Positions 1 to 19,286 of a stretch of 64,000 nucleotides of DNA are shown here, piece after piece. The stretch lies in the IMG/VR virus record IMGVR_UViG_3300035670_011573, positions 1-64,000 of that record; one strand, given 5' to 3'. This DNA comes from a virus. Within the stretch, counting starts at the first letter, position 1. Each line of letters opens with the position of its first letter. The position numbers and the translations under genes were made by a program. Below the pieces are notes generated by a model. The model ran no database searches, was not told where the DNA came from, and saw only the letters and a program-made list of their open reading frames with translations.

Positions 1-238
1 CACGCGGATCATATTTCTCTGTTCTTGTTCTCTTCAGAGATAGGACGTGTTCTTGATTTATAATAAAAGGCGCACCCTTTGTTGGAATTATTTTAACCAT
101 TCTATCTTGACCACGAAAAAGTTTTAGAACTTTTCTTTCTTTTGAGTCTGGACCCATTAAAATATCACCAACAACAATATCCTCTACAGATTTTGTTGAA
201 CCATCAAACATCAAAATCTTAGTGCCCTTGGAATGACA
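1..238 (-). other. Intein, N-terminal splicing (Hint) domain, in helicase Walker A motif
   Basis: The intein begins at Cys127 of the helicase frame (codon 238-236). Block A is clear: C-H-S-K-G-T-K-I-L-M, then DGSTKSVEDI and VGDILMGPDS, the usual Hint pattern. Block B follows as PFIINQEHVLSL with the conserved His. The insertion point is right after the PTG of the nucleotide-binding loop, a classic intein site because it cannot be lost imprecisely without destroying the enzyme. The C-terminal splicing blocks and any homing endonuclease would lie beyond base 1, so I cannot say whether it is a mini-intein or full length. Confidence 0.9.
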
Positions 239-616
239 GCCCGTTGGAGACTTTATGATTCCGCCACCATGCTTCCAGGCTTTTTTAACAATAGCTGCCT
301 GGTAGTCTCTAACCTCAAATCCACTGTTTGGATCTAAGGTTAGGCTTTCACCATAAGTAAGAACATCCCTATTATCTTGAATCTGATAAGAGGCATCATT
401 CTTCTTTAAGATTTTTTCAATGGCAGGCAACAAACCAATCGGGAAATAATGATTCTTGGTAAAAAGCCTTTGCCTACCATCCCAGTTACTTGCCTTATTC
501 ATAAACTGAAATCCTTGAACAGAATAGCTTAGCTGTTCATCGATCTCATCAATAATCTTTGGATCCCGAAGTCCGATTATTTTGCACTTAACATTTCCAA
601 CAATTATAGTTAGCAT
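1..616 (-). CDS. Superfamily 2 helicase (UvsW-like), N-terminal part, interrupted by an intein; runs off window
   Basis: The frame is open from the ATG at 616-614 to the window edge (205 codons). Residues 1-126 are host protein. They include the Q-motif-like stretch EVRDYQAAIVKKAW and end in KSPTG, the first half of a Walker A motif of the xxPTGSGKS type seen in SF2 helicases such as T4 UvsW. The next residue is Cys127, and the sequence changes to an intein N-terminal splicing domain instead of continuing with SGKT/S. The rest of the intein and the helicase motor lie beyond the window. UvsW-type enzymes remodel recombination and replication intermediates, which is family knowledge. The upstream gene is the tubulin-like GTPase, 89 bases away. 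The assignment to UvsW rather than another SF2 helicase rests on the first 126 residues and is moderate; the helicase class is firmer. Confidence 0.8.
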   Translation of the reverse strand, partial: MLTIIVGNVKCKIIGLRDPKIIDEIDEQLSYSVQGFQFMNKASNWDGRQRLFTKNHYFPIGLLPAIEKILKKNDASYQIQDNRDVLTYGESLTLDPNSGFEVRDYQAAIVKKAWKHGGGIIKSPTGCHSKGTKILMFDGSTKSVEDIVVGDILMGPDSKERKVLKLFRGQDRMVKIIPTKGAPFIINQEHVLSLKRTRTEKYDPR

Positions 617-639
617 AATACACCATTCCAGTGTATTAT
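615..639 (-). promoter_or_regulatory. Inverted repeat with -10-like TATAAT across the helicase start
   Basis: ATAATACAC (615-623) and GTGTATTAT (631-639) form a perfect 9-base inverted repeat with a 7-base spacer. The left arm covers the helicase start codon (616-614), and on the minus strand the right arm lies next to a TATAAT hexamer (640-635). It could be an operator, an RNA hairpin sequestering the start, or both. No good -35 box is present, so promoter activity is uncertain. Confidence 0.4.
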
Positions 640-705
640 ACTAAACTATTATTAATTAAGCACCTGCAATTTTATAAAATCTGCTTCCTTTTTTCGGCTT
701 AGAAT

Positions 706-2118
706 CTAGCGTCTTCGCTTATCAATAATCGAAGTTCTAGCGGTAGTGCCTTGAAGTTTATTAAAGCCAGAATTCTTGTTTTTAATCTTTCTCTCAATCT
801 CGTCTTTAACAGAGCTAACCTTATCTTCACCAAGGTCGAGAGTCATTGCATTAGCCCTTCCCTTTTCCTTGTCAGCAAGCACTGCAGCTTGTGCTTTACT
901 TTCTTTCTTTAGATTTTCAATACGATCTTGTGGCAGACCCAATCCCGCAAACCAACTATAAATTTTAATGCTATCATTATCCATATCATCTATAGCATAG
1001 ATACCCTGGAAGATGTTGGCACCATTAGTGGATTCTGAAATCATGGAAAAGCAATAATCAATATTGATGGCTGGAAGTTTGCTTAGTGCCTCCTGAGAAC
1101 CTAAGATGATTACGCCACCAGTTCTTGTCTGTGTTAGATCAAAACCTTCTGCAAGCATATTGCTGCTTAGACTCTTCATTACAGATTCTGCTAGTGCTGT
1201 TTCTTCTAGATAATCCTCTACCTCTACCATGCCGTAAACTGAGCAATCACCACAAGAAATAATCTTTCCAAAGTCACTTGGGTCTAATGAAGTAAATTGT
1301 GATGGCTGTGAAGTTAGGGTATTAAAAATATTGATTGGTTCCACAATTGCGGAGTTGGCTGTAGACCAAAACTGGGCTTGACTTAAACCACCATAAATTT
1401 GCTCAATTCTAGCATTATCTACCACAACTAGTGATGATATTACATTTGTAGAAGTTAGTTTGGCTAATCTAGCTAGGGTTTCAATAGAATTTTTCTTGGA
1501 CTGAGCATCTTCTGTGGCTTTAGGAAGAACATAAATAACGCCAATAGGCATACCTAGGCTAAATAGTAGTGGAACCATAGTATCAACAGAAGAAGAACCA
1601 GTTCCGCCACCACCTGAGATGGCTAGGTACATCATATCATTACCATCTGCGATGGCTTCAACAAACTCCGTTAGTTGTTCTGTACTTTGTTCAAAAATTT
1701 GTCTTCCTAAATCTAGATCCTTTCCAGTTCCGCCAAGACTTCCTTCCAGAAGCAGCTTTTGATTTGGGGCAACATTAATGTAAGCTAAGTCTTGAGCCGA
1801 GGTATTAACCACGCCTGCGTCATAGCCTAGCCTATGAAATTCTTCTGCAATTCTAGAGCCGGCCTGACCTACACCAATAACACCCATATTAATGCTAACT
1901 GTTCTTTTGGAAACTACTTCTGGCATAACATCACCTTCCACTTTGTTTTTTTCAGCAAGTTTAGCTTTAAGAGCTGCTAGTTTTTCTGGATCCACTTTCC
2001 TCTCCACTTTTTGTTCTGAAAATGCTGCTAAAAGTTTGTCGTTTTCTTCTGATATTTCTTCTGAAGATTTATTTTTAAATGCTGCATCATTTTCTTTAAC
2101 TATTACTTTTTCTGACAT
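706..2118 (-). CDS. Tubulin/FtsZ-superfamily GTPase
   Basis: A 470 aa cytoskeletal GTPase. The glycine loop GVGQAGS (residues 82-88) and the tubulin signature GGGGTGS (169-175) are both intact, followed by PIGVIYVLPK, the strand after T4 in FtsZ/TubZ folds. Residues 1-72 form a Lys/Glu-rich, probably helical or disordered extension absent from ordinary FtsZ. The last 50 residues are also charged and end in DKRRR, as in a filament tail. Phage relatives (PhuZ, TubZ) form filaments that centre the phage nucleus, move capsids or segregate DNA; whether this one does so is inference. The reading frame overlaps the upstream glycosyltransferase by 23 bases. It is not a bacterial FtsZ: there is no usual FtsZ C-terminal peptide, and the context is viral. 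Confidence 0.85.
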   Translation of the reverse strand: MSEKVIVKENDAAFKNKSSEEISEENDKLLAAFSEQKVERKVDPEKLAALKAKLAEKNKVEGDVMPEVVSKRTVSINMGVIGVGQAGSRIAEEFHRLGYDAGVVNTSAQDLAYINVAPNQKLLLEGSLGGTGKDLDLGRQIFEQSTEQLTEFVEAIADGNDMMYLAISGGGGTGSSSVDTMVPLLFSLGMPIGVIYVLPKATEDAQSKKNSIETLARLAKLTSTNVISSLVVVDNARIEQIYGGLSQAQFWSTANSAIVEPINIFNTLTSQPSQFTSLDPSDFGKIISCGDCSVYGMVEVEDYLEETALAESVMKSLSSNMLAEGFDLTQTRTGGVIILGSQEALSKLPAINIDYCFSMISESTNGANIFQGIYAIDDMDNDSIKIYSWFAGLGLPQDRIENLKKESKAQAAVLADKEKGRANAMTLDLGEDKVSSVKDEIERKIKNKNSGFNKLQGTTARTSIIDKRRR

Positions 2119-3118
2119 AATGCTCCTCGTATACTTTTTTCATTTGTTCATAGATTGTTTCACTTGAAACCTTTGCAATAGGGACTAGGGAACCATCCCA
2201 TTCGTAATTAGATACCTTACACAAGTATTTAGTATTAACTGAATTCATGGGGGGATAATCCGTGGTTATAATGTCGCAACCGCTAGCTGCCGCCTCGTAA
2301 AGACTTAAGCCCAAGCCTTCACGGCTAGAAGGTGCTACTACGCAATTAACCATTTTATAAATGGCAGCAATTTCATTTCTATCTAGTATTTGATTAGAAA
2401 CTTTTATGTTATCTACTTTGTTATCAGGATAGTTGCCTGTAATAATTAAATTTACAGGATATTGGTCCTTTGACTCTTGTGAAAGCTTTAAAAAGGCCTG
2501 AACTACTGCTTGTGTATTTTTACTAGAGTAATTATTATTTAAAGAAGCTTGGTGGTAAAAGTAAAATTGATTGGGGTATCCTCGATTATTGCTATTAAAA
2601 AGATCTTCATCTACGTAATTCCAGTTTATCCGTTCTAAGTTTTTATATCCGGCACGATTAAATGTATGCCAAGTATATTCCGTCAAGCACCAAACTTTAT
2701 CAAAGACATTATAACTCATTTTATTGAAATGATGTAGTGGTACCCATTCTAGCATAGGAACATCTACCACTTTAACCTTATTTCTTTTGGCTTCGTTAAT
2801 CCACCCAAGATCTGTCATAGATGTTTCCAAAGAAACAATAAGATTGGTTTTTTGTTTCTCTACCGCATCTTGAACCACCTCATTTTTCTTTAATCCATCT
2901 CTTTTAAATTTAAAAAGGTGTGGTACTGGACCTTTTACCTCTGGATATTCTAGATAATATCTTCCCTGTTTTTTTTCAAAGATTGGCTTAGGGATTAGGG
3001 ATACATTATGTCCTGCCGCCAATAATGTTTTATAGAGGCTTAGACCAAGGTATAATAATCCAGAATCATGACTGTAAGTTTTAATCAGGATATTCTCATA
3101 ATCCTTTAGTTCTAGCAT
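2096..3118 (-). CDS. Glycosyltransferase, GT-B fold (GT4-like)
   Basis: A 340 aa protein whose C-terminal half carries the retaining GT4 nucleotide-sugar signature SREGLGLSLYEAAASG (around residues 258-273), with the E-x7-E spacing that contacts the donor sugar. The N-terminal half has the opening expected of an acceptor-binding Rossmann domain (ILIKTY, LYKTLLAAGHNVSLIPKP). It transfers a sugar from a nucleotide donor, probably to a lipid- or protein-linked glycan; donor and acceptor cannot be read from the sequence. It is the last glycosyltransferase before the tubulin gene. It overlaps the GT2 gene upstream by 23 bases and the tubulin gene downstream by 23 bases, so the three are probably co-translated. 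Confidence 0.8.
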   Translation of the reverse strand: MLELKDYENILIKTYSHDSGLLYLGLSLYKTLLAAGHNVSLIPKPIFEKKQGRYYLEYPEVKGPVPHLFKFKRDGLKKNEVVQDAVEKQKTNLIVSLETSMTDLGWINEAKRNKVKVVDVPMLEWVPLHHFNKMSYNVFDKVWCLTEYTWHTFNRAGYKNLERINWNYVDEDLFNSNNRGYPNQFYFYHQASLNNNYSSKNTQAVVQAFLKLSQESKDQYPVNLIITGNYPDNKVDNIKVSNQILDRNEIAAIYKMVNCVVAPSSREGLGLSLYEAAASGCDIITTDYPPMNSVNTKYLCKVSNYEWDGSLVPIAKVSSETIYEQMKKVYEEHYVRKSNS

Positions 3119-3806
3119 TTATTCTCTCCATAGAATCTTTTTTGATTTCTTCTATATTTGAAAGATGATTTTTTTGTATATCTTCCCGTTGCGTCAGCCT
3201 ATTACTACCACGCACTATTCTGTAAAAATATAAGACTTTATGAATATATTTAATTGGATATAATTCAGATATATGTAGCCAAGTTGCATAATCTTCACCG
3301 ATCCAATACTTTTCATTAAAGCCGCCAATTTCTTTTAAAACATCCCTTCTTACCGTGGTGGAACCTGATGCAACCAAATTAATCTTCATCAAAGATTGGT
3401 GATTAACTTTAATACTCATAGGATAAAATGGTTTCATTAATCTACCGTTGGCAAAAATTTGGTAATTGCCACAGGTCATGCCTATGTCCTTATTCTGTTT
3501 GAACTCTTCAACAGAATAAAAAATTTTATCCTGGTTCATAATGTCATCATCATCTAAGAAGCTTACTAGATCCCCACTCGTATTTTTGATGCCAAAATTT
3601 CTGGCAGCCGCTGGCCCAGAGTTTTGTTCTAGCCTAAGATAGTTAAGTTTTGGGTATTTCTTTTTGACAAAATCTATCTTATTTTCAGAAGCATCATCCA
3701 CAATATTGATGGTGATATTTTTATAACTTTGTGCCAAGCAACTATCTATAGCTTCAAAGATATAAGCGTTTGGATTATGTGTTGGAATAACAATATCTAC
3801 TTTCAT
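3096..3806 (-). CDS. Family 2 glycosyltransferase (GT-A)
   Basis: A 236 aa protein with the complete GT2 pattern: VDIVIPTHNP at the start, IVDDASEN (residues ~36-43), AARNFGIKNTSGDLVSFLDDDD (DxD metal site near residue 90), and GEDYATW (~170), which matches the catalytic-base ED motif. It inverts the linkage on transfer from a nucleotide sugar. The length matches a stand-alone catalytic domain with no membrane segment, so it acts in the cytoplasm. It is the only GT-A enzyme in the cluster. Its start follows directly on the stop of the upstream gene (3807), with no gap. The acceptor is unknown. Confidence 0.88.
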   Translation of the reverse strand: MKVDIVIPTHNPNAYIFEAIDSCLAQSYKNITINIVDDASENKIDFVKKKYPKLNYLRLEQNSGPAAARNFGIKNTSGDLVSFLDDDDIMNQDKIFYSVEEFKQNKDIGMTCGNYQIFANGRLMKPFYPMSIKVNHQSLMKINLVASGSTTVRRDVLKEIGGFNEKYWIGEDYATWLHISELYPIKYIHKVLYFYRIVRGSNRLTQREDIQKNHLSNIEEIKKDSMERINARTKGL

Positions 3807-4724
3807 TTAATTCTCTAGGTATTTCTTTATATAATTTTTTGCCGTATCTGTAAAGTTATTTTTAATAAAGTTAATTGCGCCATTCTTAAGTTGTGTATAA
3901 AGCAAATTATTTTCCATAATTTCAGTGATTGCTTCACAATAGGAACCTATATCACGATTTGTAATAATTCCGGTTTTATAATTCTCACCCAGCAGATAAA
4001 TTTTAGGATGTGTAACAGATGGGAGGCCGCTACACCAGCTTTCGCATAATGCTAATCCCATAGTCTCACTTAAAGAAGTTGAAAAGTATAAGTGACAGTC
4101 TTTTGCTTTACTTACATGTTCTAAATAGTGATATGGTTGTGGATATCCAATAAATTCAAACTCATATCTTTTTAAAATTTTAGAAACTTCTAGTCCAAAG
4201 TTTATATCTTTTACTAAATGATAACTATTACCCTTCCATAAAATTCTTCCATTATCTCTGCCGGATGGTGCCCATAATTCTTGATCTGGTCCTACCATTA
4301 GAACATCGAACTTAGAAATATCTATATTATACTTCTTGGAAAGCAAAAACTTAAGTCTTTCGTTGACAACTAAAATTTTATCATATTTAGCATATTCAAG
4401 AAAGGTTCGCTCTTCGGAAGAGACGCCATCGATCACATTAGGACCAATAATTTTTTGGCCTTGAGCCATATTAATCAGCCTAATAAAATCATTATCTAGC
4501 CCACTCCATTGATGAACTATTTTAGATTTTTTTATACTGTTTGGTGCCTTTTCAGAACTTAGGGGGTTAACACTTTGATCCCAAGATTTTAACTTAGAAA
4601 AAACTTCGACAGTTACTCCTAATGCTCTTAAATCTTTTACAAAGTTAGATAGACAGATGCCGGGGCCATTTGCATAGCGCCCGGCATTACCATAATTAAA
4701 GGTAAGGAAAGTTACATCTGGCAT
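3807..4724 (-). CDS. Glycosyltransferase, GT-B fold (GT4-like)
   Basis: A 305 aa protein opening with VTFLTFNYGNAGRYANGPGICLSNFV, a glycine-rich acceptor-domain loop. The donor-domain signature is SLSETMGLALCESWCSGLP (around residues 213-231). The sequence between them (KILVVNERLKFLL, DVLMVGPDQELW) fits the usual GT-B hinge region. It ends within a few bases of the GT2 gene and begins 4 bases after the thioredoxin stop. Substrate unknown. It may act as a sequential partner of the neighbouring GT2 enzyme. Confidence 0.75.
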   Translation of the reverse strand: MPDVTFLTFNYGNAGRYANGPGICLSNFVKDLRALGVTVEVFSKLKSWDQSVNPLSSEKAPNSIKKSKIVHQWSGLDNDFIRLINMAQGQKIIGPNVIDGVSSEERTFLEYAKYDKILVVNERLKFLLSKKYNIDISKFDVLMVGPDQELWAPSGRDNGRILWKGNSYHLVKDINFGLEVSKILKRYEFEFIGYPQPYHYLEHVSKAKDCHLYFSTSLSETMGLALCESWCSGLPSVTHPKIYLLGENYKTGIITNRDIGSYCEAITEIMENNLLYTQLKNGAINFIKNNFTDTAKNYIKKYLEN

Positions 4725-5533: not shown

Positions 5534-6502
5534 TTACGCAGTATGGTAGTCAAACAAATACATCTCTTTTAATAGATCTTTCCAATTATATTCCGGCTCC
5601 CATCCCAAAGCATTCTTAGCTAAGGATGGGTTACCTAGTAAGTAAGGTACATCTGATGGCCTCATATATCTGGGGTCTTGTTCGTAAACCTGATTGAAAT
5701 CTAAATCGGCTAACTGACAGACATACTCCAGCATTTCCCTAATCGTTGCTCCATCACCTGTTGCAACAACAAAATCCCTTGGGTTCTCCTGTTGCAGCAT
5801 TAAATACATTGCCCTAACAAAATCTTTGCTATGACCCTCATCCCTAAATGGCTCTAAGTTTCCCATTTTAAGTTTGTTTTTTAAGCCCAGTTTAATGGCA
5901 GCAACACCGTGTGTAATTTTTCTAGTTGCAAAATCAAGGCCTCTTCTAGGGCTGCTGTGATTATGCAGGATCCCATTACAAGCATAAAGCCCATATGATT
6001 CCCTGTAGTTTCTAACGGCCCAGTACGCTGCCAATTTGGCCACTGCATAAGGCGACCTAGGGTTAAGGCTGGAAGATTCACTATAACCTTCCTTGGGGCA
6101 GCTTAGACCACCAAACAACTCGCTAGTACTTGCTTGATAGTACCTGGTTGATGGTGAAACTTGCCTAATTGCATCAAGTTGTGTGATTACAGCAGTAGCA
6201 TTAGTTGTAAAAGTTTTAACAGGATTTATAAATGATTGACCTACGTGTGATTCCGCTGCTAAGTTATAAAATTCATGTGGTCGATAATCATAAATAACTC
6301 TGTATATAAAGGTTGGATCGCAAATATCACCATAGATTAATTTAAAGTTTTTATCTTGAAGGCACTTTTTAATATTTGCTGATTCTTGATTGGTGCTACT
6401 CCTGCGTGTTACACCTATAACATTATAGCCTTTGGATAAAAGCAATTCAGCAAGATAAGAACCATCCTGACCACAAACACCGGTAATAATAACATTAAGC
6501 AT
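5534..6502 (-). CDS. gmd: GDP-mannose 4,6-dehydratase
   Basis: A 322 aa short-chain dehydrogenase/reductase that converts GDP-mannose to GDP-4-keto-6-deoxymannose, the precursor of GDP-fucose, GDP-rhamnose or perosamine. The NAD(P) loop is GVCGQDGSYLAELL (residues 8-21), followed by VTRRSS, typical of the GMD clade. STSELFG (~127) provides the catalytic Thr/Ser and Glu region, and YAVAKLAAY (~147) is the YxxxK motif. NHSSPRRG (~180) is the GMD substrate loop, with the usual E replaced by S. It is slightly shorter than bacterial GMD (about 345-370 aa). An AAGGAG site precedes the ATG. No GDP-fucose synthase lies beside it, so the final sugar is unknown; the epimerase gene at 6826 might supply a later step. 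Confidence 0.88.
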   Translation of the reverse strand: MLNVIITGVCGQDGSYLAELLLSKGYNVIGVTRRSSTNQESANIKKCLQDKNFKLIYGDICDPTFIYRVIYDYRPHEFYNLAAESHVGQSFINPVKTFTTNATAVITQLDAIRQVSPSTRYYQASTSELFGGLSCPKEGYSESSSLNPRSPYAVAKLAAYWAVRNYRESYGLYACNGILHNHSSPRRGLDFATRKITHGVAAIKLGLKNKLKMGNLEPFRDEGHSKDFVRAMYLMLQQENPRDFVVATGDGATIREMLEYVCQLADLDFNQVYEQDPRYMRPSDVPYLLGNPSLAKNALGWEPEYNWKDLLKEMYLFDYHTA

Positions 6503-6770
6503 TCTTAGTACGCTCCTTAAATCTTAGGACTTCATTTTTAAAATCTAAATATCTAAGCTTAGATAGCTCTTCCAAGCTATTGATATTAAACAAGATATAA
6601 TCTTTGTCATCCTGGGTGAAGTCTTCAGAAGATAGAAACCACTCTAATCCGTCTGGCTCTTTTAAATATCTAAGCCTTGAGGATATTATGGAAAACTTTA
6701 TCATATCCCGTCTTTCTGTGGGAGATTTTTCTTTTAATTCTGGGAGACTAGATTTTTTAACTATATGCAT
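6495..6770 (-). CDS. Small protein of unknown function in sugar operon
   Basis: About 92 aa from the ATG at 6770-6768. The same frame stays open to a TTG at 6821, which would give 108 aa, and there is another ATG at 6797. I prefer 6770 because the stretch upstream of it forms an inverted repeat, but ribosome sites are weak for all three. The product is hydrophilic and helical (FSIISSRLRYLKEPDGLEWFL, LEELSKLRYLDFKNEVLRF) and not recognised. It overlaps the GDP-mannose dehydratase start by 8 bases, suggesting coupled translation. Confidence 0.55.
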   Translation of the reverse strand: MHIVKKSSLPELKEKSPTERRDMIKFSIISSRLRYLKEPDGLEWFLSSEDFTQDDKDYILFNINSLEELSKLRYLDFKNEVLRFKERTKNA

Positions 6771-6773
6771 GGA

Positions 6774-6809
6774 ACAACACCCTGGCAAACTTACCATACC
6801 GGGTGTTGT
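6774..6809 (-). repeat. Inverted repeat / RNA hairpin after the epimerase gene
   Basis: ACAACACCC (6774-6782) pairs perfectly with GGGTGTTGT (6801-6809), extended inside by GG/CC around one bulged base. It lies 17 bases past the epimerase stop and just upstream of the ATG at 6770. No T-run follows, so it is not a canonical terminator. It may protect the 3' end of the upstream mRNA or hide the next ribosome site. Confidence 0.5.
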
Positions 6810-6825
6810 AAAATAGAACAATAGG

Positions 6826-7761
6826 TTAATCAGTATTTTTAATATACCAGTTAATAGTTTCTTTTAAGCCATCCTCAATATCAACTAGGGGTGTATATCC
6901 AAGTATTTCTTTTGCTTTAGATATATCAGCCTGTGAGCAGGGTACATCGCCTACTCTTTCTTCAAAATGTTTGGGTGGCAAAGCATTCATCATTTTTACT
7001 AGATCATTAATGCTAGTTTTTTTACCGCATCCTACATTGAAAACTTCACCGTTTAATGGTTTGCTATGGTTAGATGCTTTTACAATAAAATCAACAACGT
7101 TGTCTATATAAGTAAAGTCTCTGAAGAAACTTCCATCACCATAAATAATTGGGCTTTTGGAATCTTTTATTGACTGACAGAAGGCTGATATGACGGATGC
7201 GTAAGGTGAATCGCCATATTGATTTGGACCAAATATATTGAAAAATCTCATGCTTACAGTGTCTAAACCATAAAAGTAAGAATACATTTTACAATATTCT
7301 TCTCCAATCATTTTTTGTAAGGCATAAGGACTCTTGGGCGCTAAGGTTATACTTTCTGGTGTTGGCAGTATTTTTGATCCGCCATAAACTGAGCTGGAAG
7401 ATGCAAAAATAACTTTTTTTATATAATACTTTCTTGCAAGATCTAGGATTTTGAGCGTTCCCGTAACGTTTGTATCATTAGTTTCTAGTGGATTCTCTAC
7501 AGAATACGATACTCTTGGGATTGCTGCCAAATGTATAATTTGCTCTATATTTGAATGATTCTTAAAAATTTCATTCATCTTATTATCATCTAAGATGTTT
7601 GCATTATAAAATAAAAAATTATTTTTAATATTATCTATATTTGATTCCCGACCACTTCTAAGATTGTCAACACCAACAACATTCCAGCCAATACCTGCTA
7701 GATGTTTTGATAGATTGCTTCCTATAAATCCTGCCGCACCAGTAATCAAAACAGTTTTCAT
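6826..7761 (-). CDS. NAD-dependent nucleotide-sugar epimerase/dehydratase
   Basis: A 311 aa extended short-chain dehydrogenase. GAAGFIGSNL (residues 8-17) binds NAD, VDNLRSG follows strand 2, FASSSSVYGG (~119-128) carries the catalytic Ser, and YALQK (~146-150) is the YxxxK pair. RFFNIFGPNQ (~174) and GDGSFFRDFTYIDNVVD (~206) are typical of UDP-glucose 4-epimerase and UDP-glucuronate epimerase or decarboxylase relatives. The length is full for the family. The exact substrate cannot be assigned. The UDP-sugar dehydrogenase is directly upstream (18-base gap), so UDP-glucuronate or UDP-galactose derivatives are plausible. Confidence 0.85.
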   Translation of the reverse strand: MKTVLITGAAGFIGSNLSKHLAGIGWNVVGVDNLRSGRESNIDNIKNNFLFYNANILDDNKMNEIFKNHSNIEQIIHLAAIPRVSYSVENPLETNDTNVTGTLKILDLARKYYIKKVIFASSSSVYGGSKILPTPESITLAPKSPYALQKMIGEEYCKMYSYFYGLDTVSMRFFNIFGPNQYGDSPYASVISAFCQSIKDSKSPIIYGDGSFFRDFTYIDNVVDFIVKASNHSKPLNGEVFNVGCGKKTSINDLVKMMNALPPKHFEERVGDVPCSQADISKAKEILGYTPLVDIEDGLKETINWYIKNTD

Positions 7762-7779
7762 AAATATTTTTCCTTTTAA

Positions 7780-8613
7780 TTAATCTTTTCTCATTTTATT
7801 TCTTTCAGAAATACAAGAATCTATGATAGAGTTTGGTGTACCCATTCTTTTCATGAAATGGTTTAAGGCATTAGTATCTTTTGGAAAGCAAGCTCCACCA
7901 TAACTCAACTGCCCATCTAAGCCTATTGTTGTATGCATAGGATTTATCCATCCATTTTTAAGCATCATAGACTTTACAGTAGGATAATCTGCACCAATTC
8001 TCTGGCAAAGTAAATAAAATTCATTAAATACTTGTACTTTAATTGCATAAAAATTATTACAGAATAATTTCATTGCCTCTGATTCTTCTGAATTACATAT
8101 TGATATTTCTGCTTCGGGATATAAATCTTTATATAATTCTGATAAAATATCTGTACTTTGATACTGAGTACTAATCCCCTTTGAATCTTGTGTGGCCACA
8201 AGTCTATGGTGTCCAATTACAATATGCTTTTGACTATCAAAATCTTCAAATGCAGTTCTGGCGGTTAAAAATTCCGGATTGTGACAAATATTTAAGTGGT
8301 AACTTTCTGAAAGTAATTTTGTGGTTCCTGGCTCAACTGTGCTTTTTATAACTACTAAGCCCTGATACCTTCTGTAAGGGTCTCTGGAGTTGGATAAGAA
8401 GCTTAAGTTTTCTTGTAATGCGGATATATTAAAACCATGGCCTTCCACGTATGGTGTTGGTAAGCATAAGAATACAACATCAGTATTTAAAATGGATTCA
8501 ATATTCCCAATACCTTTAAATTTGTCATATACTAAAACTTTTTGACCTTTTAATTCAAAACTTTTTTTAAGTGCGCCGCCGACAAAACCTGCCCCTATTA
8601 GACCAACCTTCAT
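7780..8613 (-). CDS. UDP-glucose/GDP-mannose dehydrogenase family protein, short form
   Basis: 277 aa. The N-terminal Rossmann motif GLIGAGFVGGAL (residues 4-15), KSTVEPGTT (~91-99), NPEFLTARTAFEDF and the catalytic-cysteine motif GGACFPKD (~237-244) are all present. These enzymes oxidise the C6 alcohol of a UDP- or GDP-sugar to the uronic acid with two NAD+. The usual C-terminal UDP-binding domain (about 100 further residues) is missing; the protein ends shortly after the catalytic domain. Short forms occur in phages and may still be active as dimers, or may have another substrate. The ribosome site AGAGG is near the start. The 89-base gap upstream is described separately. Confidence 0.82.
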   Translation of the reverse strand: MKVGLIGAGFVGGALKKSFELKGQKVLVYDKFKGIGNIESILNTDVVFLCLPTPYVEGHGFNISALQENLSFLSNSRDPYRRYQGLVVIKSTVEPGTTKLLSESYHLNICHNPEFLTARTAFEDFDSQKHIVIGHHRLVATQDSKGISTQYQSTDILSELYKDLYPEAEISICNSEESEAMKLFCNNFYAIKVQVFNEFYLLCQRIGADYPTVKSMMLKNGWINPMHTTIGLDGQLSYGGACFPKDTNALNHFMKRMGTPNSIIDSCISERNKMRKD

Positions 8614-8702
8614 TAAGCACCTCTAATAATTTCTCGTAATATTTATTACATAAAATTAATTATACTATAAACATATTATATCTTATTATTTTAAACTTAG
8701 CC
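8614..8702 (-). promoter_or_regulatory. AT-rich gap with two TATAAT hexamers
   Basis: An 89-base gap separates the glycosyltransferase stop from the dehydrogenase start. On the minus strand it holds TATAAT at 8680-8675 and again at 8664-8659, both without a recognisable -35 box. It could be an internal promoter for the nucleotide-sugar genes, or plain AT-rich spacer. No terminator hairpin is visible. Confidence 0.3.
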
Positions 8703-9614
8703 TTAACTTTGTTTTTTTATTTTATTAAAAATTTCAAAGTACTCTTTCCATATAGTACTCCAACAGTGATTTTTGTGTATAGTTTCTTGTATGTTATTTG
8801 ATGTAATATTTAACAATTCTTTGTTTTTATATATTTCTAATATTTTTTTATTTAAGCTATCTGATGTTCTATCAATTTTGAATCCATTAAAATTATCTAC
8901 TAGTATTTCACCAAATGCTGATCTTTCACAAGATGATATCGTAGTAACACCACAGGCTCCCCCTTCAAATGGGGGAAGCGGCCCCCCTTCATCTGTACTC
9001 ATACATATTATTAAGTCTAATTTGTTATAAAAATCCGGCATTTCATTAGGCTTAACCCTATCTTCTTTATCATAAGATGCTACGTAAAAATTAACATACT
9101 TATCCAGGTTTTGAACGGCTTGTTTTATCAGGGCATATCCCTTGGAATCATTTGGCCTATTTTTATTTCCAATAAAACCTATATTTAACTTATTTGCGTT
9201 GGTTTTATTTTTATTTTTACAAAAAAAATTAGTATCTACGGCTACTGGTATATGCTTAATTATATTAAACTTATCACTAATTTCTAATTTCGCCTTTTTC
9301 TCTATTTGCTTGTTCATACATATAAAATATCCAAAATTTTTTGTGTTTATTTCAGACTGCTTTTTGTAATCACCAAAAGATGAAAATCTAACGGCAGTAT
9401 TTTCACTGCTATATGTTATGTTTTTTGCTTGACGTGGATAAAGAAGTACAGAGTCATAAGAATTTCTTATTTCTGAAGATAATTTTTCATAAAAAAATGG
9501 ATAAGAGTATGTATCTACAATGCATTTTGTATTTTTATTTATATATTTTTTTAAACCAACCGCCTCAGAATAGTAAGCCCAACCAATCACATCATATAAT
9601 ATGGCAACCTTCAT
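8703..9614 (-). CDS. Glycosyltransferase, GT-B fold (paralogue A of three)
   Basis: 303 aa. The N-terminus VAILYDVIGWAYYSEAVGLKKY is shared in pattern with two other genes of the cluster (starts 13760 and 15665): short beta strand, then D-x3-W-A, then a helix with LK. The donor signature is STDEGGPLPPFEGGACG (around residues 203-219), a GT4-like E-x7-E. The donor-domain opening NIGFIGNKNRPND is also visible. It is clearly Lys/Asn/Ile-rich, reflecting the AT-rich DNA of 8.7-14 kb. Its start is 2 bases from the pyruvyltransferase stop. Sugar and acceptor unknown. Confidence 0.75.
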   Translation of the reverse strand: MKVAILYDVIGWAYYSEAVGLKKYINKNTKCIVDTYSYPFFYEKLSSEIRNSYDSVLLYPRQAKNITYSSENTAVRFSSFGDYKKQSEINTKNFGYFICMNKQIEKKAKLEISDKFNIIKHIPVAVDTNFFCKNKNKTNANKLNIGFIGNKNRPNDSKGYALIKQAVQNLDKYVNFYVASYDKEDRVKPNEMPDFYNKLDLIICMSTDEGGPLPPFEGGACGVTTISSCERSAFGEILVDNFNGFKIDRTSDSLNKKILEIYKNKELLNITSNNIQETIHKNHCWSTIWKEYFEIFNKIKKQS

Positions 9615-9616
9615 GA

Positions 9617-10516
9617 TTATCCAGCCCTTATTTTATTTTTAATAATTGTACTTTTTTGTATTAAATCATTTACTATATCATTTATTTTTTTATCTGAAAT
9701 TATTTTTTTATCATTTATTTTCATGCTTATTTTTTCATAATCTATATCTTTTATATCCAATGGATTTTCATCATTAATTGATTTTGCAAACCCATCTATT
9801 TTATAATCTTTTGATATTGCCAGAACTTTTTTACCTAGGGCTGTTGCTATTATATAACCATGTAACCTTGTAGATACTACAAGGCTTGCTTTGTTATATT
9901 CATCTATTGTTGATTCAACTTGTGAAGAATCTCTTGCTATATTATTAACCTGAGAATATTTTAAATTATTCACTTCAGAATATTTTTTTAATATTTCAAT
10001 TATCTTTAAGTCATTACTTTTTCCAACTAATGACTCATGACTAACATACAAAAGTTTTTTTTCTACATTTTCTTGTTTTTTATAATTTTTAAATATATGA
10101 TATATGCTTGGACAAAAGGTTTCTTTTACCTTATCATTATGAAATGGTAGAGGTGCTCTAAAGTATGTAGCCTCTGAACTATTAATTATATTTTCAACAA
10201 GGCTTTGTTTTAAAACAGTATTTTTATCAACATTTTTGTGTTGGCACACACCTACACCAAATATATATAATTTAAAATTATTCATTTTTTTATATTTTAA
10301 TATTTCTAACCAATATTTTTCAAAATAATCTTTTAATAAACCACCACCACCTATTATAATTGAGTCGTTTGAGTTAATATTTTTTAATTCTAAGTCTAGT
10401 GCCTTATTTCTTTCTAAAAATAATTCTTTACCTGATATATTAATAAGTTCTTTAATGCCAAGCATAGATATGTAATCACCAATATTTATATTGTTTGCAC
10501 AGCAATAATATATCAT
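9617..10516 (-). CDS. Polysaccharide pyruvyl transferase family protein
   Basis: A 299 aa protein of the CsaB/WcaK type, which ketalises sugars with pyruvate from phosphoenolpyruvate. Seen in the sequence: NINIGDYISMLGI at the start, IIIGGGGLLKDYF (residues ~54-66), LYIFGVGVCQHK (~84), a central YFRAPL, and the C-terminal VVSTRLHGYIIATALGKKV (~211-229), the hallmark RLHG of the family. The length is normal. Pyruvate caps add negative charge and can anchor S-layer proteins. It overlaps the upstream methyltransferase by 4 bases (ATGA), so translation is coupled. DNA here is among the most AT-rich in the window, a hint of a separate origin. Confidence 0.85.
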   Translation of the reverse strand: MIYYCCANNINIGDYISMLGIKELINISGKELFLERNKALDLELKNINSNDSIIIGGGGLLKDYFEKYWLEILKYKKMNNFKLYIFGVGVCQHKNVDKNTVLKQSLVENIINSSEATYFRAPLPFHNDKVKETFCPSIYHIFKNYKKQENVEKKLLYVSHESLVGKSNDLKIIEILKKYSEVNNLKYSQVNNIARDSSQVESTIDEYNKASLVVSTRLHGYIIATALGKKVLAISKDYKIDGFAKSINDENPLDIKDIDYEKISMKINDKKIISDKKINDIVNDLIQKSTIIKNKIRAG

Positions 10517-11106
10517 TTTTTACCCCATCTGTATATACTTCCATTTTTATATAAAAGATTAAAATCTGGATGAGACCAATTTTCTATATATTTTTTTCCA
10601 GAATCATATATCTCACCAACATTTACTCCTAAAAGAAATCCTTCTTTTGATATTCTGGAAAATTCATTCAATACATTCGGCCAAATGCTAATAGGCTTAA
10701 AGAATGTTATTGCACCATAACAAATTAAAAAGTCAAATTGTTTATTTTTAAAAGGATAAGGCAAAATAGAACCATCATGAACTGTGCATTTTAAATTTTG
10801 AGATTCTATCATTGGTCTATATATCCAATCACCATCCTTAAAACCTGGTGAATAATCCATTCCTACAGCAGCATGACCATAGAAATTTAATACTTCCAAA
10901 GTGGCTCCATTACCACATGCTACGTCTAGAATCTTTTTTTTATTCTCTGAAAATAAAACATCTGGTATGTGGTGTTCTAATCTAGCTATATTTATTTTTA
11001 AAGTCCTATCCCTACCTAAAAACTTATGTTCTTTAGAACCCTTAAACTTATCTTTAATGCTTCTATCCTTCCACTCTCCAAATAGCTTGCTGGTGTCTTT
11101 TTCCAT
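10513..11106 (-). CDS. SAM-dependent methyltransferase (class I)
   Basis: A 197 aa Rossmann methyltransferase. Motif I is ILDVACGNGATLEVL (residues ~60-74), the acidic end of strand 2 is AVGMDYSPG (~80), and the motif IV region is FDFLICYGAITFF (~128). Between genes for sugar modification it probably O-methylates a glycan or its precursor, but the target is not readable. It shares an ATGA overlap with the pyruvyltransferase. Its start lies 22 bases from the glycosyltransferase stop upstream. The N-terminal 50 residues are basic and hydrophilic with no recognised domain. Confidence 0.82.
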   Translation of the reverse strand: MEKDTSKLFGEWKDRSIKDKFKGSKEHKFLGRDRTLKINIARLEHHIPDVLFSENKKKILDVACGNGATLEVLNFYGHAAVGMDYSPGFKDGDWIYRPMIESQNLKCTVHDGSILPYPFKNKQFDFLICYGAITFFKPISIWPNVLNEFSRISKEGFLLGVNVGEIYDSGKKYIENWSHPDFNLLYKNGSIYRWGKK

Positions 11107-11128
11107 ATTAAATACTCCTACCTTATAT

Positions 11129-12268
11129 TTATTTAATTCTCATATTTTTAAGCATATCTTGAGCTCTAAGATTCCAAGAATTATTTTTAATTGTAATTTT
11201 TGATATATTTTCTTTGTCAAATTGTCTTTTTGAAATAACCTTGATTGCATCAGTATATTCCCTTATATTGCATATATTTTCAACTATAATTCCGGCATTA
11301 GCTTTTTTTATTAAATCTGTATTACCAGTGCTAATTTCTGTAATGACGGGAAGTCCTACTGTTAAATATTCTAAAAGTTTAGCATTGCCTGCCGAACTTT
11401 TATTTTTAGACCATGATGGTGATAAATCTATTCCCAAGTCTGAATTAATTAAATAGTTCCAATGCTCACCCCATGATACTGGCTTATGAACTGTAATATT
11501 TTTTGATTTTGAAAAATATTTTTTTAACCACTGAAGATTATCAGAAACCTCTGGCCCAAATTTATTTTTTCCATTTAGATTTAATTTATCCAGCATTTCG
11601 GGCGGCTTTGCAAAACTACCTGGTAATATATTTAAATGATACTCTTCTGAAAAATTATTCATTACATCAATTAAAAAAGGCATTTTAGATGGAGAATGCA
11701 TCATTCTGCCCATATAAATTAAGTTATGCTTTCTTTTTAAGAATGGCGCATCTTTTAAATTATCTTTTACATATTCTGTGCCCATTTCTGAATAAAAAAC
11801 CTTTTGCTGTGGATCACCATTAACTTTTTTCATAGAATTCATAAAACCTATTTCTTGACAAAAAAAGAAGTCAGCTGCTTTATATATATAATCAAAAGAA
11901 AACTTTGATTTACTAATCCAATTATGTGTCGCGTGTTTAATTACCAGCAAAGTCTTTGTTTTTATACCTGCTGCTTTCTTATCCATTAGATTCTTAAGCG
12001 GCTTTATCGAATCAATAACTTTTTCTATTGCTAGGTCTAGTCCTAATATTATTATATCAAAACTTTCTAATAATTCAAAATCTATTTTGGAATAAGGCAT
12101 CATCTGTATATTATGTATTTTATCTAGTTGCAATCTTGAAACATAAAAAACTTCATGGCCTAAATTAGAAAATCCTTTTGCCAATCCAAAAGATTTATAT
12201 ATACTATAATGTATTTTGAATTCATTTTCAAAAGGTGAGGCTGTATTTCCTGCAATTAATATTTTCAT
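11129..12268 (-). CDS. Glycosyltransferase, GT-B fold
   Basis: About 379 aa from the ATG at 12268, which overlaps the upstream methyltransferase stop as ATGA. A TTG four codons earlier (12280) is possible but less likely. The N-terminal strand MKILIAGNTASPFENEF starts an acceptor domain. The donor domain shows LIYMGRMMHSPSKMPFLI (~190) and SWSKNKSSAGNAKLLEYLTVGLPVIT (around residues 278-303), a GT4-like donor site in which the first Glu is replaced. NLIYMG and VTVHKP fit the hinge and strands. Substrate unknown. The altered signature could mean an unusual donor or reduced activity. Confidence 0.72.
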   Translation of the reverse strand: MKILIAGNTASPFENEFKIHYSIYKSFGLAKGFSNLGHEVFYVSRLQLDKIHNIQMMPYSKIDFELLESFDIIILGLDLAIEKVIDSIKPLKNLMDKKAAGIKTKTLLVIKHATHNWISKSKFSFDYIYKAADFFFCQEIGFMNSMKKVNGDPQQKVFYSEMGTEYVKDNLKDAPFLKRKHNLIYMGRMMHSPSKMPFLIDVMNNFSEEYHLNILPGSFAKPPEMLDKLNLNGKNKFGPEVSDNLQWLKKYFSKSKNITVHKPVSWGEHWNYLINSDLGIDLSPSWSKNKSSAGNAKLLEYLTVGLPVITEISTGNTDLIKKANAGIIVENICNIREYTDAIKVISKRQFDKENISKITIKNNSWNLRAQDMLKNMRIK

Positions 12269-12753
12269 TTTTTTACACAATAATAGATTGACTGTTGTGG
12301 TGGTAAAACCAAATCTTTCTTAAGAACTTCTATTTTATAATCATTTATAAATAATTTTTCAAATGAATCAAAACTTTTATTTAGACATGAAAAAATGAAA
12401 TGATTGAAATTTTTTTGTATATATAAGTTGAAACTTTTTTTATCATCTATGTATTCTAATAGTCCAAGAAAAAGTCCTAACCCTGGATCTTCAATATTAG
12501 GCCTATCTATATTTAAATCAACTAAAATTGTTAAATCTGTATGTTTAATACTATCAAACCCAAAATATTTTATATCTTTATTTATAAAGTTAACAATGTT
12601 TGAGTCACCACAACCAAAATCATATAGATATTCTGGATTTACTTCGTTTATTTTTTTTGCTGCCGTCATCATTCTTTCTGACCAATCTAAACCTTTGTTA
12701 GCTGGATAATCCTTAAGTAATTTGCAGCCTTTTTCCGCCCATCTATTTGCCAT
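12265..12753 (-). CDS. Small SAM-dependent methyltransferase-like protein
   Basis: 162 aa. Motif I is YLYDFGCGDSNIVNFI (residues ~41-56), strand 2 ends in YFGFDSI (~64), and there is a second acidic strand, LTILVDLN. The C-terminal half is short for the family and ends in SIYYCVKK, resembling the antiparallel strand pair closing class I folds. It is compact but plausibly complete. It is coupled by ATGA to the glycosyltransferase downstream, so glycan methylation is the natural inference. Target residue and sugar are unknown. Confidence 0.68.
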   Translation of the reverse strand: MANRWAEKGCKLLKDYPANKGLDWSERMMTAAKKINEVNPEYLYDFGCGDSNIVNFINKDIKYFGFDSIKHTDLTILVDLNIDRPNIEDPGLGLFLGLLEYIDDKKSFNLYIQKNFNHFIFSCLNKSFDSFEKLFINDYKIEVLKKDLVLPPQQSIYYCVKK

Positions 12754-12770
12754 TAGACCTCCCTTCTAAA

Positions 12771-13760
12771 TTATGCATCACATATATTTTCAAAAAATAA
12801 TATAACTTCTTCAATTCTTTTTTCATAGGTCCAATTATTAATAATTTCTTTATATAGATTTTCCGAAATATCTTTTCTTAAACTTTTATCATCTTTAATT
12901 TGTATTATTTTTTTTGAAATATTAAAAATATTATCATCAACGATTAATCCATTGAATTTATCAACAACAATATCTCTAGACAAACCAACATGCGTAGTAA
13001 TAACTGGAATAGCGCAGGCTCCAGACTCTAACATCATCATTGGACCACCTTCAGATTTGCTTAGGCAAATAACAGCATCCAGTTTATTATACCATTTATT
13101 TAGTTCTATTCTATCCAGGTCTTTTGCAGCCTTAAGGATAACCCCAGCCATCGTGGCAGATTTACTAACCAATTCAAAATTCTTTATAGGATTATTAAAG
13201 TTTCCAGACCATCCCAGCGTAAATTTTTTATTTTCTACTAAGATATTATTTCTTTTTATACAAAAAATTTCATTATTAATTGCTTGTGATACACGAAATA
13301 TATTTGGATGTAATCCTTTAAAATTTTTAATAATAAAAGAATTACAACAAGCTAATGCTTTTGTACCTTCAAAATATTTTTTGTAGGTAGTTTGCGCACC
13401 TTCATTTACCCATTTTTCATTATTTATACACACACCAACTTTATCTAGAGGAAAATCTGTAGATAATAGCCTACCGTCCCAAATTGCTCTGTGATATAAG
13501 AAAACAATTCCATCATATTTAGAATGATCAAAGATATTTTTTTTTCCATTTTTAGATATAAAATTTTTTTTATATTCTAAAAAGCTTTCCATATTGCTAT
13601 AAACATTTGCATTATTTACTTCTTCATTTTTTACACTACTATATTCTTTAAGATAAAGTATCTCTATATTATACTTTTTAAAGAGAAGTTTTTTCCAATT
13701 TTGAACGGCATCATCATATGCCCACCCCCTTACATCTACAATCAAAAGAATATTTTTCAT
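12771..13760 (-). CDS. Glycosyltransferase, GT-B fold (paralogue B of three)
   Basis: 329 aa. The opening NILLIVDVRGWAYDDAVQNWKKL matches the N-terminal pattern of the genes at 8703 and 14787. The donor domain has FTLGWSGNFNNPIKNFE (~180) and LSKSEGGPMMMLESGACAIPV (around residues 228-248), with the E-x7-E pair intact. The ATG forms a TAATG overlap with the upstream glycosyltransferase stop at 13760, so the two are translationally coupled. Very AT-rich coding sequence, heavy in Asn, Ile and Lys. Substrate unknown. Confidence 0.76.
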   Translation of the reverse strand: MKNILLIVDVRGWAYDDAVQNWKKLLFKKYNIEILYLKEYSSVKNEEVNNANVYSNMESFLEYKKNFISKNGKKNIFDHSKYDGIVFLYHRAIWDGRLLSTDFPLDKVGVCINNEKWVNEGAQTTYKKYFEGTKALACCNSFIIKNFKGLHPNIFRVSQAINNEIFCIKRNNILVENKKFTLGWSGNFNNPIKNFELVSKSATMAGVILKAAKDLDRIELNKWYNKLDAVICLSKSEGGPMMMLESGACAIPVITTHVGLSRDIVVDKFNGLIVDDNIFNISKKIIQIKDDKSLRKDISENLYKEIINNWTYEKRIEEVILFFENICDA

Positions 13761-14794
13761 TAGATAATCTCTTTCATCTTTTCAATAAGCGAATTTTTAT
13801 TTAAAACATTAAAAGCAACCTTATTTTTTAACAAATAAGATATTTTATTTATCCATTCTTTTTTATCATAAACATCATCACATATAAACTCAGATGGGTA
13901 TGATTCATACCACCCGCAATTTCTACTCATTAATATATTTGATCCACATAAAATTGCTTCTTTTATTGTGTTAGGTGAAGCATCATAATAGGAAGTGCAT
14001 AAAATAACTTTTGTATTTTTCATTATCTCAAGAACTTCTCTCTGCGAAGATAGGTCCCTACATTCCATATTTTTAATACCATTAAAAATTGAAGAATTCT
14101 TACCAACCACAATTTTTTTGTTCATATCAAACTTTTTTTCTGACATAATATTTATTGCTAATTCAGAATTTTTAACCTTCCTAGAAAGGTTGGAGCAAAT
14201 AAAGGCCAAATCCCATTTTCTATCTGTGAAATTTTCACCCAGACAAATATCGTTGTTAAATGCCAAAGAAGTGTCTATGGGGTTTGAAAACTTCTTATTT
14301 TCACCATAATTTTTAATTAATAATTTTTTACCTAACCAACTATTTGGAACCACCAAATCAGAAGCCCTGATACAAGCCTCTTCCTGCTTGAATCTAATGA
14401 TATTAAAACCAGATAGATATTTTTGCGCAGAAATTCCATTTTCTGAAGCAGATGACATTTGAGGTGACCCAGTTACCAAATACACTATTTTTACATTAGG
14501 AAATAATTCTTTAGAAATAACAGGTGCTGCATAATTTTTTCCAAAAATGACATCTGGTAATCCGCCCAACTGCCTAGTTATTAGCCTATTTAAAATACTC
14601 TTCTTATCCTTACCTGGATCAAACTTCCAGACACCACCAATTTTATCAGGATCTACATTTACCCTGCTAGATTCAAAAAATACTCCTGCAACCATATGGC
14701 CAAAACTTCTAAGATATTTTATTAAGGCATAGCTGTTGGTTGCTGCACCGCCATAATAAGGATATTGTGTACTTGTTATAAGAATTCTAGCCAT
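13760..14794 (-). CDS. Glycosyltransferase, GT-B fold
   Basis: 344 aa. RILITSTQYPYYGGAATNSYALIKYL has the glycine-rich GGAATNS loop found in GT4 acceptor domains, and CTSYYDASPNTIKEAILCGSNIL (around residues 263-285) is the donor site, with DASPNTIKEA replacing the common EGxPxxxLEA. AFICSNLSRKVKNSELAI (~196) is the first strand and helix of the donor domain. It overlaps its upstream neighbour by 8 bases and its downstream neighbour by one base. Substrate unknown. Confidence 0.75.
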   Translation of the reverse strand: MARILITSTQYPYYGGAATNSYALIKYLRSFGHMVAGVFFESSRVNVDPDKIGGVWKFDPGKDKKSILNRLITRQLGGLPDVIFGKNYAAPVISKELFPNVKIVYLVTGSPQMSSASENGISAQKYLSGFNIIRFKQEEACIRASDLVVPNSWLGKKLLIKNYGENKKFSNPIDTSLAFNNDICLGENFTDRKWDLAFICSNLSRKVKNSELAINIMSEKKFDMNKKIVVGKNSSIFNGIKNMECRDLSSQREVLEIMKNTKVILCTSYYDASPNTIKEAILCGSNILMSRNCGWYESYPSEFICDDVYDKKEWINKISYLLKNKVAFNVLNKNSLIEKMKEII

Positions 14795-15665
14795 AACTAA
14801 TACCTAAAAATGGTTGAAATCCTTTTGATCTAGTCTTCCAAGACCACTCTTTATATATATGTTCTTTAATAATTTTTCCATACTTAGATATCAAGGCAGG
14901 ATTATTTTTATGAAATTGAATGGACTTTTTAAGTTCTTCCTTTTTAGATGCAGATGTAATTGCTCCACATTTTTTAATCTGAATTACATTCCCTACGTTG
15001 GTAGATATAATAGACCTTCCACAAGCACCTGCTTCCAAAATAGGGTTAGGCGTACCCTCTGATTCGCTAAAACAAATTAAGGTACCAATAGAATTATAAA
15101 AGTCTAACATCTGCTTAGCGTTTAAATTATCAGACTGAAAAGCAGTTTTAAGTTGATAATCTGGACCTAAGGTTTTGAAGATATCATTTATTATATCGAA
15201 TCTTTTCACTGCCCTCTTGTGATTGCCTACCCAACCAAAAACACTGCTATATTTAGAAGGTTCCGTTGTACTGTAAAAATTTTCTGTGTTGACACCGAAA
15301 GGAGTATTGTAAACCTTCTTAGGATAAGCAGGCCTAAACTCACTAAACAACAAATTACTAGAGGTACTAATAGCATCGTAATTATTTAAAACACTAGATA
15401 TGCTTAGCGGTCCATTACGACCAACATGGCTAGATATTGTTGTTACCAAACGATAGTTACGCCTAGCAGATATTTTTTCACGAATATAAGTATGGATAGG
15501 CCAATTCAAAGAATAAACTAGATCAAAATTATTAAAGTTTAAATCATTAACATCTCTAAAGTGCTTTATCAAAATATCATGTTTTGAGAAGTATTGTTTA
15601 AGATTAGCTGCCCTATTAGCCAACGCCCAGGTATAACTATCCACAATAAACAATGCTCTAGCCAT
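14787..15665 (-). CDS. Glycosyltransferase, GT-B fold (paralogue C of three)
   Basis: About 292 aa from the ATG at 15665, which forms a TAATG overlap with the upstream stop. An ATG nine codons earlier (15692) is in frame but would add residues before the first beta strand. It begins RALFIVDSYTWALANRAANLKQY, aligning by eye with the genes at 8703 and 12771. The donor-domain opening is VFGWVGNHKRAVKRFD (~150), and the signature is FSESEGTPNPILEAGACGRS (around residues 200-219). It is less AT-rich than its paralogues. Substrate unknown. Confidence 0.77.
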   Translation of the reverse strand: MARALFIVDSYTWALANRAANLKQYFSKHDILIKHFRDVNDLNFNNFDLVYSLNWPIHTYIREKISARRNYRLVTTISSHVGRNGPLSISSVLNNYDAISTSSNLLFSEFRPAYPKKVYNTPFGVNTENFYSTTEPSKYSSVFGWVGNHKRAVKRFDIINDIFKTLGPDYQLKTAFQSDNLNAKQMLDFYNSIGTLICFSESEGTPNPILEAGACGRSIISTNVGNVIQIKKCGAITSASKKEELKKSIQFHKNNPALISKYGKIIKEHIYKEWSWKTRSKGFQPFLGISYG

Positions 15666-16582
15666 TAAATCATTCCAAAGATCTGATTCCATTTTAAAAG
15701 ATAATCTTTTATATGAAATTTTTCAATAGCAATTTGACGTGATGATAAGCTGTAATCTTTTTGCATATTTTCATTATTAATCAGCATTTTTAACCCAGTC
15801 AACAGCTCATCTTTATTATTTGATAGAATGGCAGTCTTACCATTTTTAAAGTACAAGTCTATATCAAAATTATTAGTTGATACCAATGGCATTCCGCACA
15901 TCACTGCTTCGGCACGACTTCTAGGCATTGCAGATGATTGTGTTGGGTTAAAATAAACATTGTATTTATTATATATTCTTACAAGAGCTTCCAAACTTTC
16001 TGCCACATTATCATTTCTGTTGATGTCCGTATTTCCATGGCCCACCAAATCTATAAGCCCTAATTCATCGCTGATGCCTTTCCATAAATTATATCCCATA
16101 ATTTGGGAACGCTTCTTGAAAACATTGGCAACAGTTAGGATACGATTATTTTTTTCTAAGTCTATCTTTTTAAATTCTTCAGGATCAAAACCATGAACAA
16201 TATGATAGTGATTCATTTTAGGATAGCGATGCCTGTTAGAATTTAAAACCGACAAGCAGTTCCAAACTACATGCCTACATTCTCTTGGAAATGGAAATGC
16301 ATTAGTGGTTTGTACTACTGCAATAGGTTTCGCACCACGCCTAATAACATTTGTATATTTTATAGGTAGAATCGGGGAACGAATTATCACCGCATCAAAA
16401 TTAATCTTGCTAATTTCTTTTTCATAAATTAAATTAACATTACTATTTAATGGCCTGTGCATCCCATTCCAGTTTGGCTTACCACCATCAATACCCACTA
16501 GATAAAAATCATGACCAGTTTTAAAAAACTCATATTGATGACCTTGGTGACAATACCAGTCTAAAATCTTTAGTTTTTTCAT
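15665..16582 (-). CDS. Glycosyltransferase, GT-B fold
   Basis: 305 aa. The N-terminal domain begins LKILDWYCHQGHQYEFFKTGHDF, a form seen in glycosyltransferases of phage and marine bacterial clusters. ILTVANVFKKRSQIMG (~142) opens the donor domain, and NPTQSSAMPRSRAEAVMCGMPLVST (around residues 208-232) is the donor site, with Arg-Ala-Glu-Ala in place of the LEA motif. It shares an ATGA overlap with the gene upstream and a TAATG overlap with the gene downstream. Substrate unknown. Confidence 0.75.
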   Translation of the reverse strand: MKKLKILDWYCHQGHQYEFFKTGHDFYLVGIDGGKPNWNGMHRPLNSNVNLIYEKEISKINFDAVIIRSPILPIKYTNVIRRGAKPIAVVQTTNAFPFPRECRHVVWNCLSVLNSNRHRYPKMNHYHIVHGFDPEEFKKIDLEKNNRILTVANVFKKRSQIMGYNLWKGISDELGLIDLVGHGNTDINRNDNVAESLEALVRIYNKYNVYFNPTQSSAMPRSRAEAVMCGMPLVSTNNFDIDLYFKNGKTAILSNNKDELLTGLKMLINNENMQKDYSLSSRQIAIEKFHIKDYLLKWNQIFGMI

Positions 16583-19278: not shown

Positions 19279-19286
19279 CTTTAAAC

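Follow-up and report, generated by a model that had tools for sequence, protein, structure and literature searches.

A TubZ-like tubulin from a separate tubulin clade in huge phages, predicted to be produced in a long and a short form from one nested gene

The window analysed here, a stretch of 64,000 nucleotides, is the first 64 kb of the 177,932-base virus contig IMGVR_UViG_3300035670_011573, which starts inside a UvsW gene. An open reading frame with an ATG start was identified close to this end, encoding a GTPase of the tubulin/FtsZ superfamily; its location on a virus record agrees with the phage-borne origin proposed in an initial annotation of this DNA. The features of the locus are collected in Table 1. 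Longer start forms of the reading frame were weighed and dropped, as the best Shine-Dalgarno sequence belongs to the first ATG. Residues 79-242 match the Pfam Tubulin GTPase domain (1.2e-12) and residues 266-404 the TubZ-like_C domain (2.5e-6), and in a sequence search of solved structures TubZ/RepX was the best match (2.3e-15).

Table 1. Features of the tubulin locus in window coordinates.
Feature	Position	Strand	Basis or remark
UvsW-type helicase, conserved downstream neighbour, cut by the contig end	2-616	-	Contains the beginning of an intein (Hom_end_hint 1.1e-13)
Long form, tubulin-like GTPase, 470 aa	706-2118	-	ORF, Pfam, AF2 model
Predicted short form, 406 aa, residues 65-470, same frame from Met65	706-1926	-	Putative translation product; second start kept in 61/61 family genes
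C-terminal helix and basic tail ending IIDKRRR, residues 406-470	709-903	-	Kept family-wide
Tubulin/FtsZ-superfamily core, residues 76-405	904-1893	-	Pfam, AF2, fold search
T7 loop TSLDPSDFG with catalytic acidic residues D279 and D282	1267-1293	-	Alignment
Tubulin signature G-box SGGGGTGSS, residues 168-176	1591-1617	-	Alignment
Second start codon ATG (Met65)	1924-1926	-	Family comparison
Charged N-terminal extension, residues 1-64, two predicted helices (19-34, 44-61)	1927-2118	-	Alignment, AF2, selection
Shine-Dalgarno-like GGAAGGTG ahead of the second start	1932-1939	-	Duplex -6.8 kcal/mol
Glycosyltransferase, Glycos_transf_1, EX7E motif	2096-3118	-	Shares 23 nt with the start of the tubulin gene, in a different frame
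Shine-Dalgarno GAGGAG ahead of the first start, within the end of the glycosyltransferase gene	2123-2128	-	Duplex -8.1 kcal/mol
GT2-family glycosyltransferase, conserved neighbour	3096-3806	-	Neighbourhood comparison
Glycosyltransferase-like (group 1), conserved neighbour	3807-4724	-	Neighbourhood comparison

The alignment showed that the nucleotide-binding motifs of the window protein are intact, as had been claimed (T1 GVGQAGS, signature SGGGGTGSS, T6 VVDNARIE), and that the catalytic T7 loop is present (SLDPSD). D279 is invariant across the 61 relatives; the aligned sequences that were displayed have D or E at position 282. A model generated with AF2 from the 61 sequences reached a mean pLDDT of 83.3, with values above 90 through most of the core. 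When this model was searched against the PDB, TubZ structures were identified as the best matches (4ei7, Z 40.0, 2.5 A over 344 residues; 2xka, Z 39.8), followed by CetZ (Z 36.0; 34-36 for the group), FtsZ (about 32) and c-st TubZ (32). The TubZ fold including its long C-terminal helix is present in the model, and, judged from this predicted fold and from the C-terminal GLGLP motif, TubZ is the nearest known protein.

A tree was built with sequences of FtsZ, plasmid TubZ and PhuZ, CetZ being compared by fold; the family stands apart from these three groups as a clade of its own (support 100%). No sister group is claimed, because TubZ is paraphyletic in this tree and the deep branches are long. 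The early impression that the protein is unlike FtsZ, TubZ or PhuZ was thereby borne out, as it neither falls within an FtsZ clade nor lacks the T7 loop; a phage tubulin with an extension was correctly recognised, while the range of options considered for it proved too narrow. Identity to TubZ of the type III partition systems of Bacillales plasmids is only about 20%, although the T7 acidic residues are shared.

No relative of the tubulin was found by tblastn in INPHARED (50,697 phage records). Iterated scans of IMG/VR yielded up to about 90-115 loci per scan, on contigs of up to 481 kb. After removal of copies at 95% identity or more, 61 distinct proteins formed the main set, and 27 further members, found later, were used as a held-out set. 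In the databases searched, the family was seen only in metagenomic huge-phage contigs. The one match among cellular-genome contigs (WLOB01000045.1, an Actinomycetota MAG) carries the same synteny block including the tubulin, and is most likely phage DNA mis-binned into the MAG. One close relative with 42% identity, automatically named FtsZ, is present in BFVD and originates from an uncultured Caudovirales phage. A terminase profile gave no match in the 177,932-base record. Tail-sheath-like and baseplate-like genes make up a large part of the window, among them one for a sheath-like protein of 1,072 amino acids (59203-62421, minus strand), for which INPHARED holds no relative. The phage lineage appears to be uncultured.

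The gene order of the locus is sugar enzyme or glycosyltransferase, tubulin, UvsW, a protein of about 200 amino acids, a small protein, DnaC-like loader and DnaB. The UvsW family, which the clustering merged with the DnaC-like loader, was identified downstream of the tubulin in all 55 loci with sufficient room, and DnaB in 43. The gene upstream is of sugar type in 47 of 62 loci, belonging to an epimerase family in 35 and being a fused or separate glycosyltransferase in 12. The family of about 200 amino acids between UvsW and the helicase loader is present in 51 of 62 loci (for example L037:10798-11400 and L015:14051-14650) and has no Pfam or PHROG match. Small Sm/Hfq-like proteins were also noted around the tubulin and loader genes (L037:7293-8363, L015:14647-15117, L090:11323-11724), one by a weak Hfq match (5.8e-5) and the others by eye. 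Further along the window, positions 5534-20393 of the minus strand hold a long run of glycosyltransferases, epimerases, and UDP-sugar dehydrogenase-like and methyltransferase-like genes, a gene content which suggests that the phage makes its own glycans.

The charged N-terminal extension of 72 residues described in the initial annotation is real and conserved, with 44% D/E/K/R in residues 1-64; the number is fair, because the core begins near residue 76, and the extension itself is counted here as 64-74 amino acids. While 4-7 residues precede the core in PhuZ, 10-21 in FtsZ and 2-33 in TubZ, the new family has 48-136. The extension consists of a variable acidic stretch followed by a conserved, helix-forming KLAALKAK-like motif (DPEKLAALKAK in the clade of the window protein), the helices being modelled by AF2 with moderate confidence. 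In close pairs, dN/dS is about 0.12-0.16 for the extension and about 0.03 for the core, with synonymous sites near saturation; the extension is under purifying selection and is therefore translated. The basic tail is likewise present in the window gene and conserved across the family, where a conserved helix is followed by a (V/I)(V/I)D(K/R)RRK-like basic end. When profiles of extension and tail were searched, no other protein convincingly shared their motifs.

A second in-frame start codon precedes the core in all 61 genes of the main set (ATG in 50, GTG in 9, TTG in 2), in nearly all of them 11-15 codons upstream; for a few genes, such as L015 and L010, an ATG up to 22 codons from the core, outside the exact slot, was counted. 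In the family genes, GTG makes up 11.8% and TTG 18.1% of the codons of their respective amino acids. Met65 of the window protein lies 14 residues ahead of the core and is preceded by GGAAGGTG. At the pre-core Met, the mean duplex with the anti-Shine-Dalgarno sequence amounts to -7.3 kcal/mol; the annotated start reaches -6.5, and the remaining internal Met codons -1.4. Pairing at the pre-core site exceeds that after synonymous recoding (-7.3 versus -3.8; Wilcoxon p 2e-12), which is not the case for other internal Mets, and part of the signal stems from the Lys/Glu-rich protein sequence. When 452 well-filled alignment columns were scanned, a start codon with a Shine-Dalgarno sequence was found in most sequences only at the annotated start and at the pre-core slot. 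The same scan of neighbouring families with at least 10 members gave an internal-column maximum of 0.44, compared to 0.83 at the tubulin slot. The held-out set gave a similar picture: a start codon occupies the slot in 26 of its 27 genes, and a Shine-Dalgarno pairing of -5 or lower was found in 18 of the 27, as against 8% of other Met codons. Weak pre-core sites were found in L033 and in about one third of the held-out genes. Because the site of the window gene alone matches the synonymous expectation (-6.8 versus -6.5), the case for a second start rests on the family, and these counts are not independent events, since the sequences are related.

For seven distinct relatives (L006, L007, L010, L011, L012, L013 and L014), the glycosyltransferase and the tubulin were found to form one in-frame open reading frame without a stop codon. 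The EX7E motif is kept in these fusions, and the long-form start retains its Shine-Dalgarno sequence. In the AF2 model of a fusion, the first domain, of 345 residues, is modelled with confidence and is followed by the extension as a loose linker and by the tubulin core. The initial annotation was right about a phage tubulin with a genuine extension, and what it missed are the second conserved start, which would make the extension optional, the constant position of the gene between those for sugar enzymes and replication, and these fusions.

Taken together, the gene probably codes for a cytoskeletal GTPase of TubZ-like type, belonging to a separate clade of huge-phage tubulins, and is nested, giving a long and a short form, so that the extension looks like an optional module. 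Initiation at the first ATG would produce a long tubulin with a charged, helical N-terminal adaptor, and initiation at Met65 a short tubulin of ordinary TubZ/FtsZ length. Long and short forms should co-assemble into GTP-driven filaments, because the GTPase core, the T7 acidic residues and the basic C-terminal tail are common to both. While the tail would be on every subunit, resembling that of TubZ in place and charge, the extension would be a second docking site carried by long subunits only. The number of adaptors displayed on the filament would then follow the ratio of long to short form, their density being set by initiation at the two starts. In some relatives, a glycosyltransferase-tubulin is expected as a third product. 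A similar layout is that of phage T7 gp4A/4B, a nested in-frame gene with two products, of which the long one has an extra N-terminal module and which can mix in one oligomer; gp4A/4B, however, is not a cytoskeletal filament. The filament would probably be produced alongside the replication proteins encoded downstream (UvsW, the DnaC-like loader and DnaB), and, in infected cells that have no nucleus of the chimallin type, may serve to position virions, phage DNA or replication foci. The co-location with replication genes suggests DNA or replication foci as its cargo, synteny being no proof of such a role. It might further be, though this is put forward as a doubtful generalisation, that a widespread, chimallin-free lineage of huge phages builds a cytoskeleton from one gene whose two or, with the fusion, three nested products, namely bare, adaptor-bearing and glycosyltransferase-bearing tubulin, mix in one filament, with the strength of the ribosome-binding sites setting the density of adaptor or enzyme.

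The conserved pre-core Met would have a different meaning if the long tubulin alone were made: Met and purine-rich stretch would then be retained for their role in the protein, or because ribosomes pausing there help the core to fold, and would not initiate translation. The Lys/Glu-rich character of the stretch, by which a pairing of -3.8 is already expected among synonymous sequences, and the weak site in a few divergent members are consistent with this. However, all 11 genes without an ATG have GTG or TTG near the same place, and the signal, confined to one column, exceeds the level expected among synonymous sequences, which makes the long form as sole product unlikely. A more improbable reading, although TubZ is the nearest fold and the GLGLP motif and TubZ-like_C domain are shared with it, is DNA partition of the TubZ type, in which the tubulin would segregate the phage genome, kept like a plasmid in pseudolysogeny, by means of a DNA-binding adaptor whose gene lies at another locus. 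The basic tail also fits such a function, since in TubZ it is the tail to which TubR and TubY bind and which shapes the filament (PMC5322520). A gene for 98-110 amino acids, however, lies directly upstream of TubZ in all seven plasmid controls, whereas no TubR-sized gene stands next to the phage tubulin, the upstream place being taken in 47 of 62 loci by the sugar-type genes described above. Iteron arrays were not seen in positions 1-4500 of the window, in L004 or in L037, and the plasmid controls were without a clear array as well. In addition, the family lies outside the sampled TubZ sequences and differs from them in its long extension and second start.

The role in nucleus positioning brought up in the initial annotation would imply a PhuZ-like spindle centring a phage nucleus, as PhuZ does in Chimalliviridae (PMC13282480), and here, too, a tubulin-superfamily GTPase of large phages is concerned. 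A single-protein search for chimallin found nothing and had no positive control, hence a profile search with controls was used: the PHROG chimallin profile was absent from all 18 carrier records, which include the window's own, have a single tubulin each and may be incomplete contigs, but was detected in all three nucleus-forming control phages. PhuZ, which occurs together with chimallin, is furthermore only distantly similar to the window protein and in a different clade, has almost no residues ahead of the core, and has PF22334 as its C-terminal family; phiKZ PhuZ matches this family, whereas the window protein does not. Because chimallin was not found, a nucleus spindle of the PhuZ type is the least credible of the explanations, and that role was not borne out. 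Hardly better placed is a captured FtsZ, or an FtsZ poison acting on host division. The superfamily relation with its common GTPase core and T7 loop and the automatic FtsZ name of the BFVD relative speak for it; the match to the FtsZ equivalog profile, however, is weak (58 bits, far below the 295-bit cut-off), an FtsZ-type tail is missing, and FtsZ sequences fall outside the family clade. The nested gene for a TubZ-like GTPase hence remains the preferred reading.

To our knowledge, phage cytoskeletons are known almost only from PhuZ of nucleus-forming phages and from TubZ of plasmids and plasmid-like phages. If huge phages in which chimallin is not detectable have a third, larger clade of phage tubulins, the phage nucleus would not be the only setting in which phages organise the interior of the cell. 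Two tubulin forms from one frame would be new for the superfamily, as far as the literature search reached; it retrieved neither an account of this clade nor one of a tubulin with two starts, work of 2025 being incompletely covered. Phage tubulins as such have been described before: tubulins of two kinds have been noted for jumbo phages in reviews (PMC7824862), and those of the PhuZ type have been reported from huge-phage genomes (PMC7162821).

Two family tubulins (L175:1366-4134 and L178:1513-4314, both on the plus strand) were considered as tandem tubulins, which was rejected, since they carry intein insertions. These inteins, with a LAGLIDADG homing endonuclease, interrupt the T1 loop (GQAG^SR; Pfam Intein_splicing 2e-11 and 5e-11), and no intein in any tubulin or FtsZ was found by literature search. 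Inteins in the GTP-binding loop and the glycosyltransferase-tubulin fusions would both offer further handles on the role of the filament.
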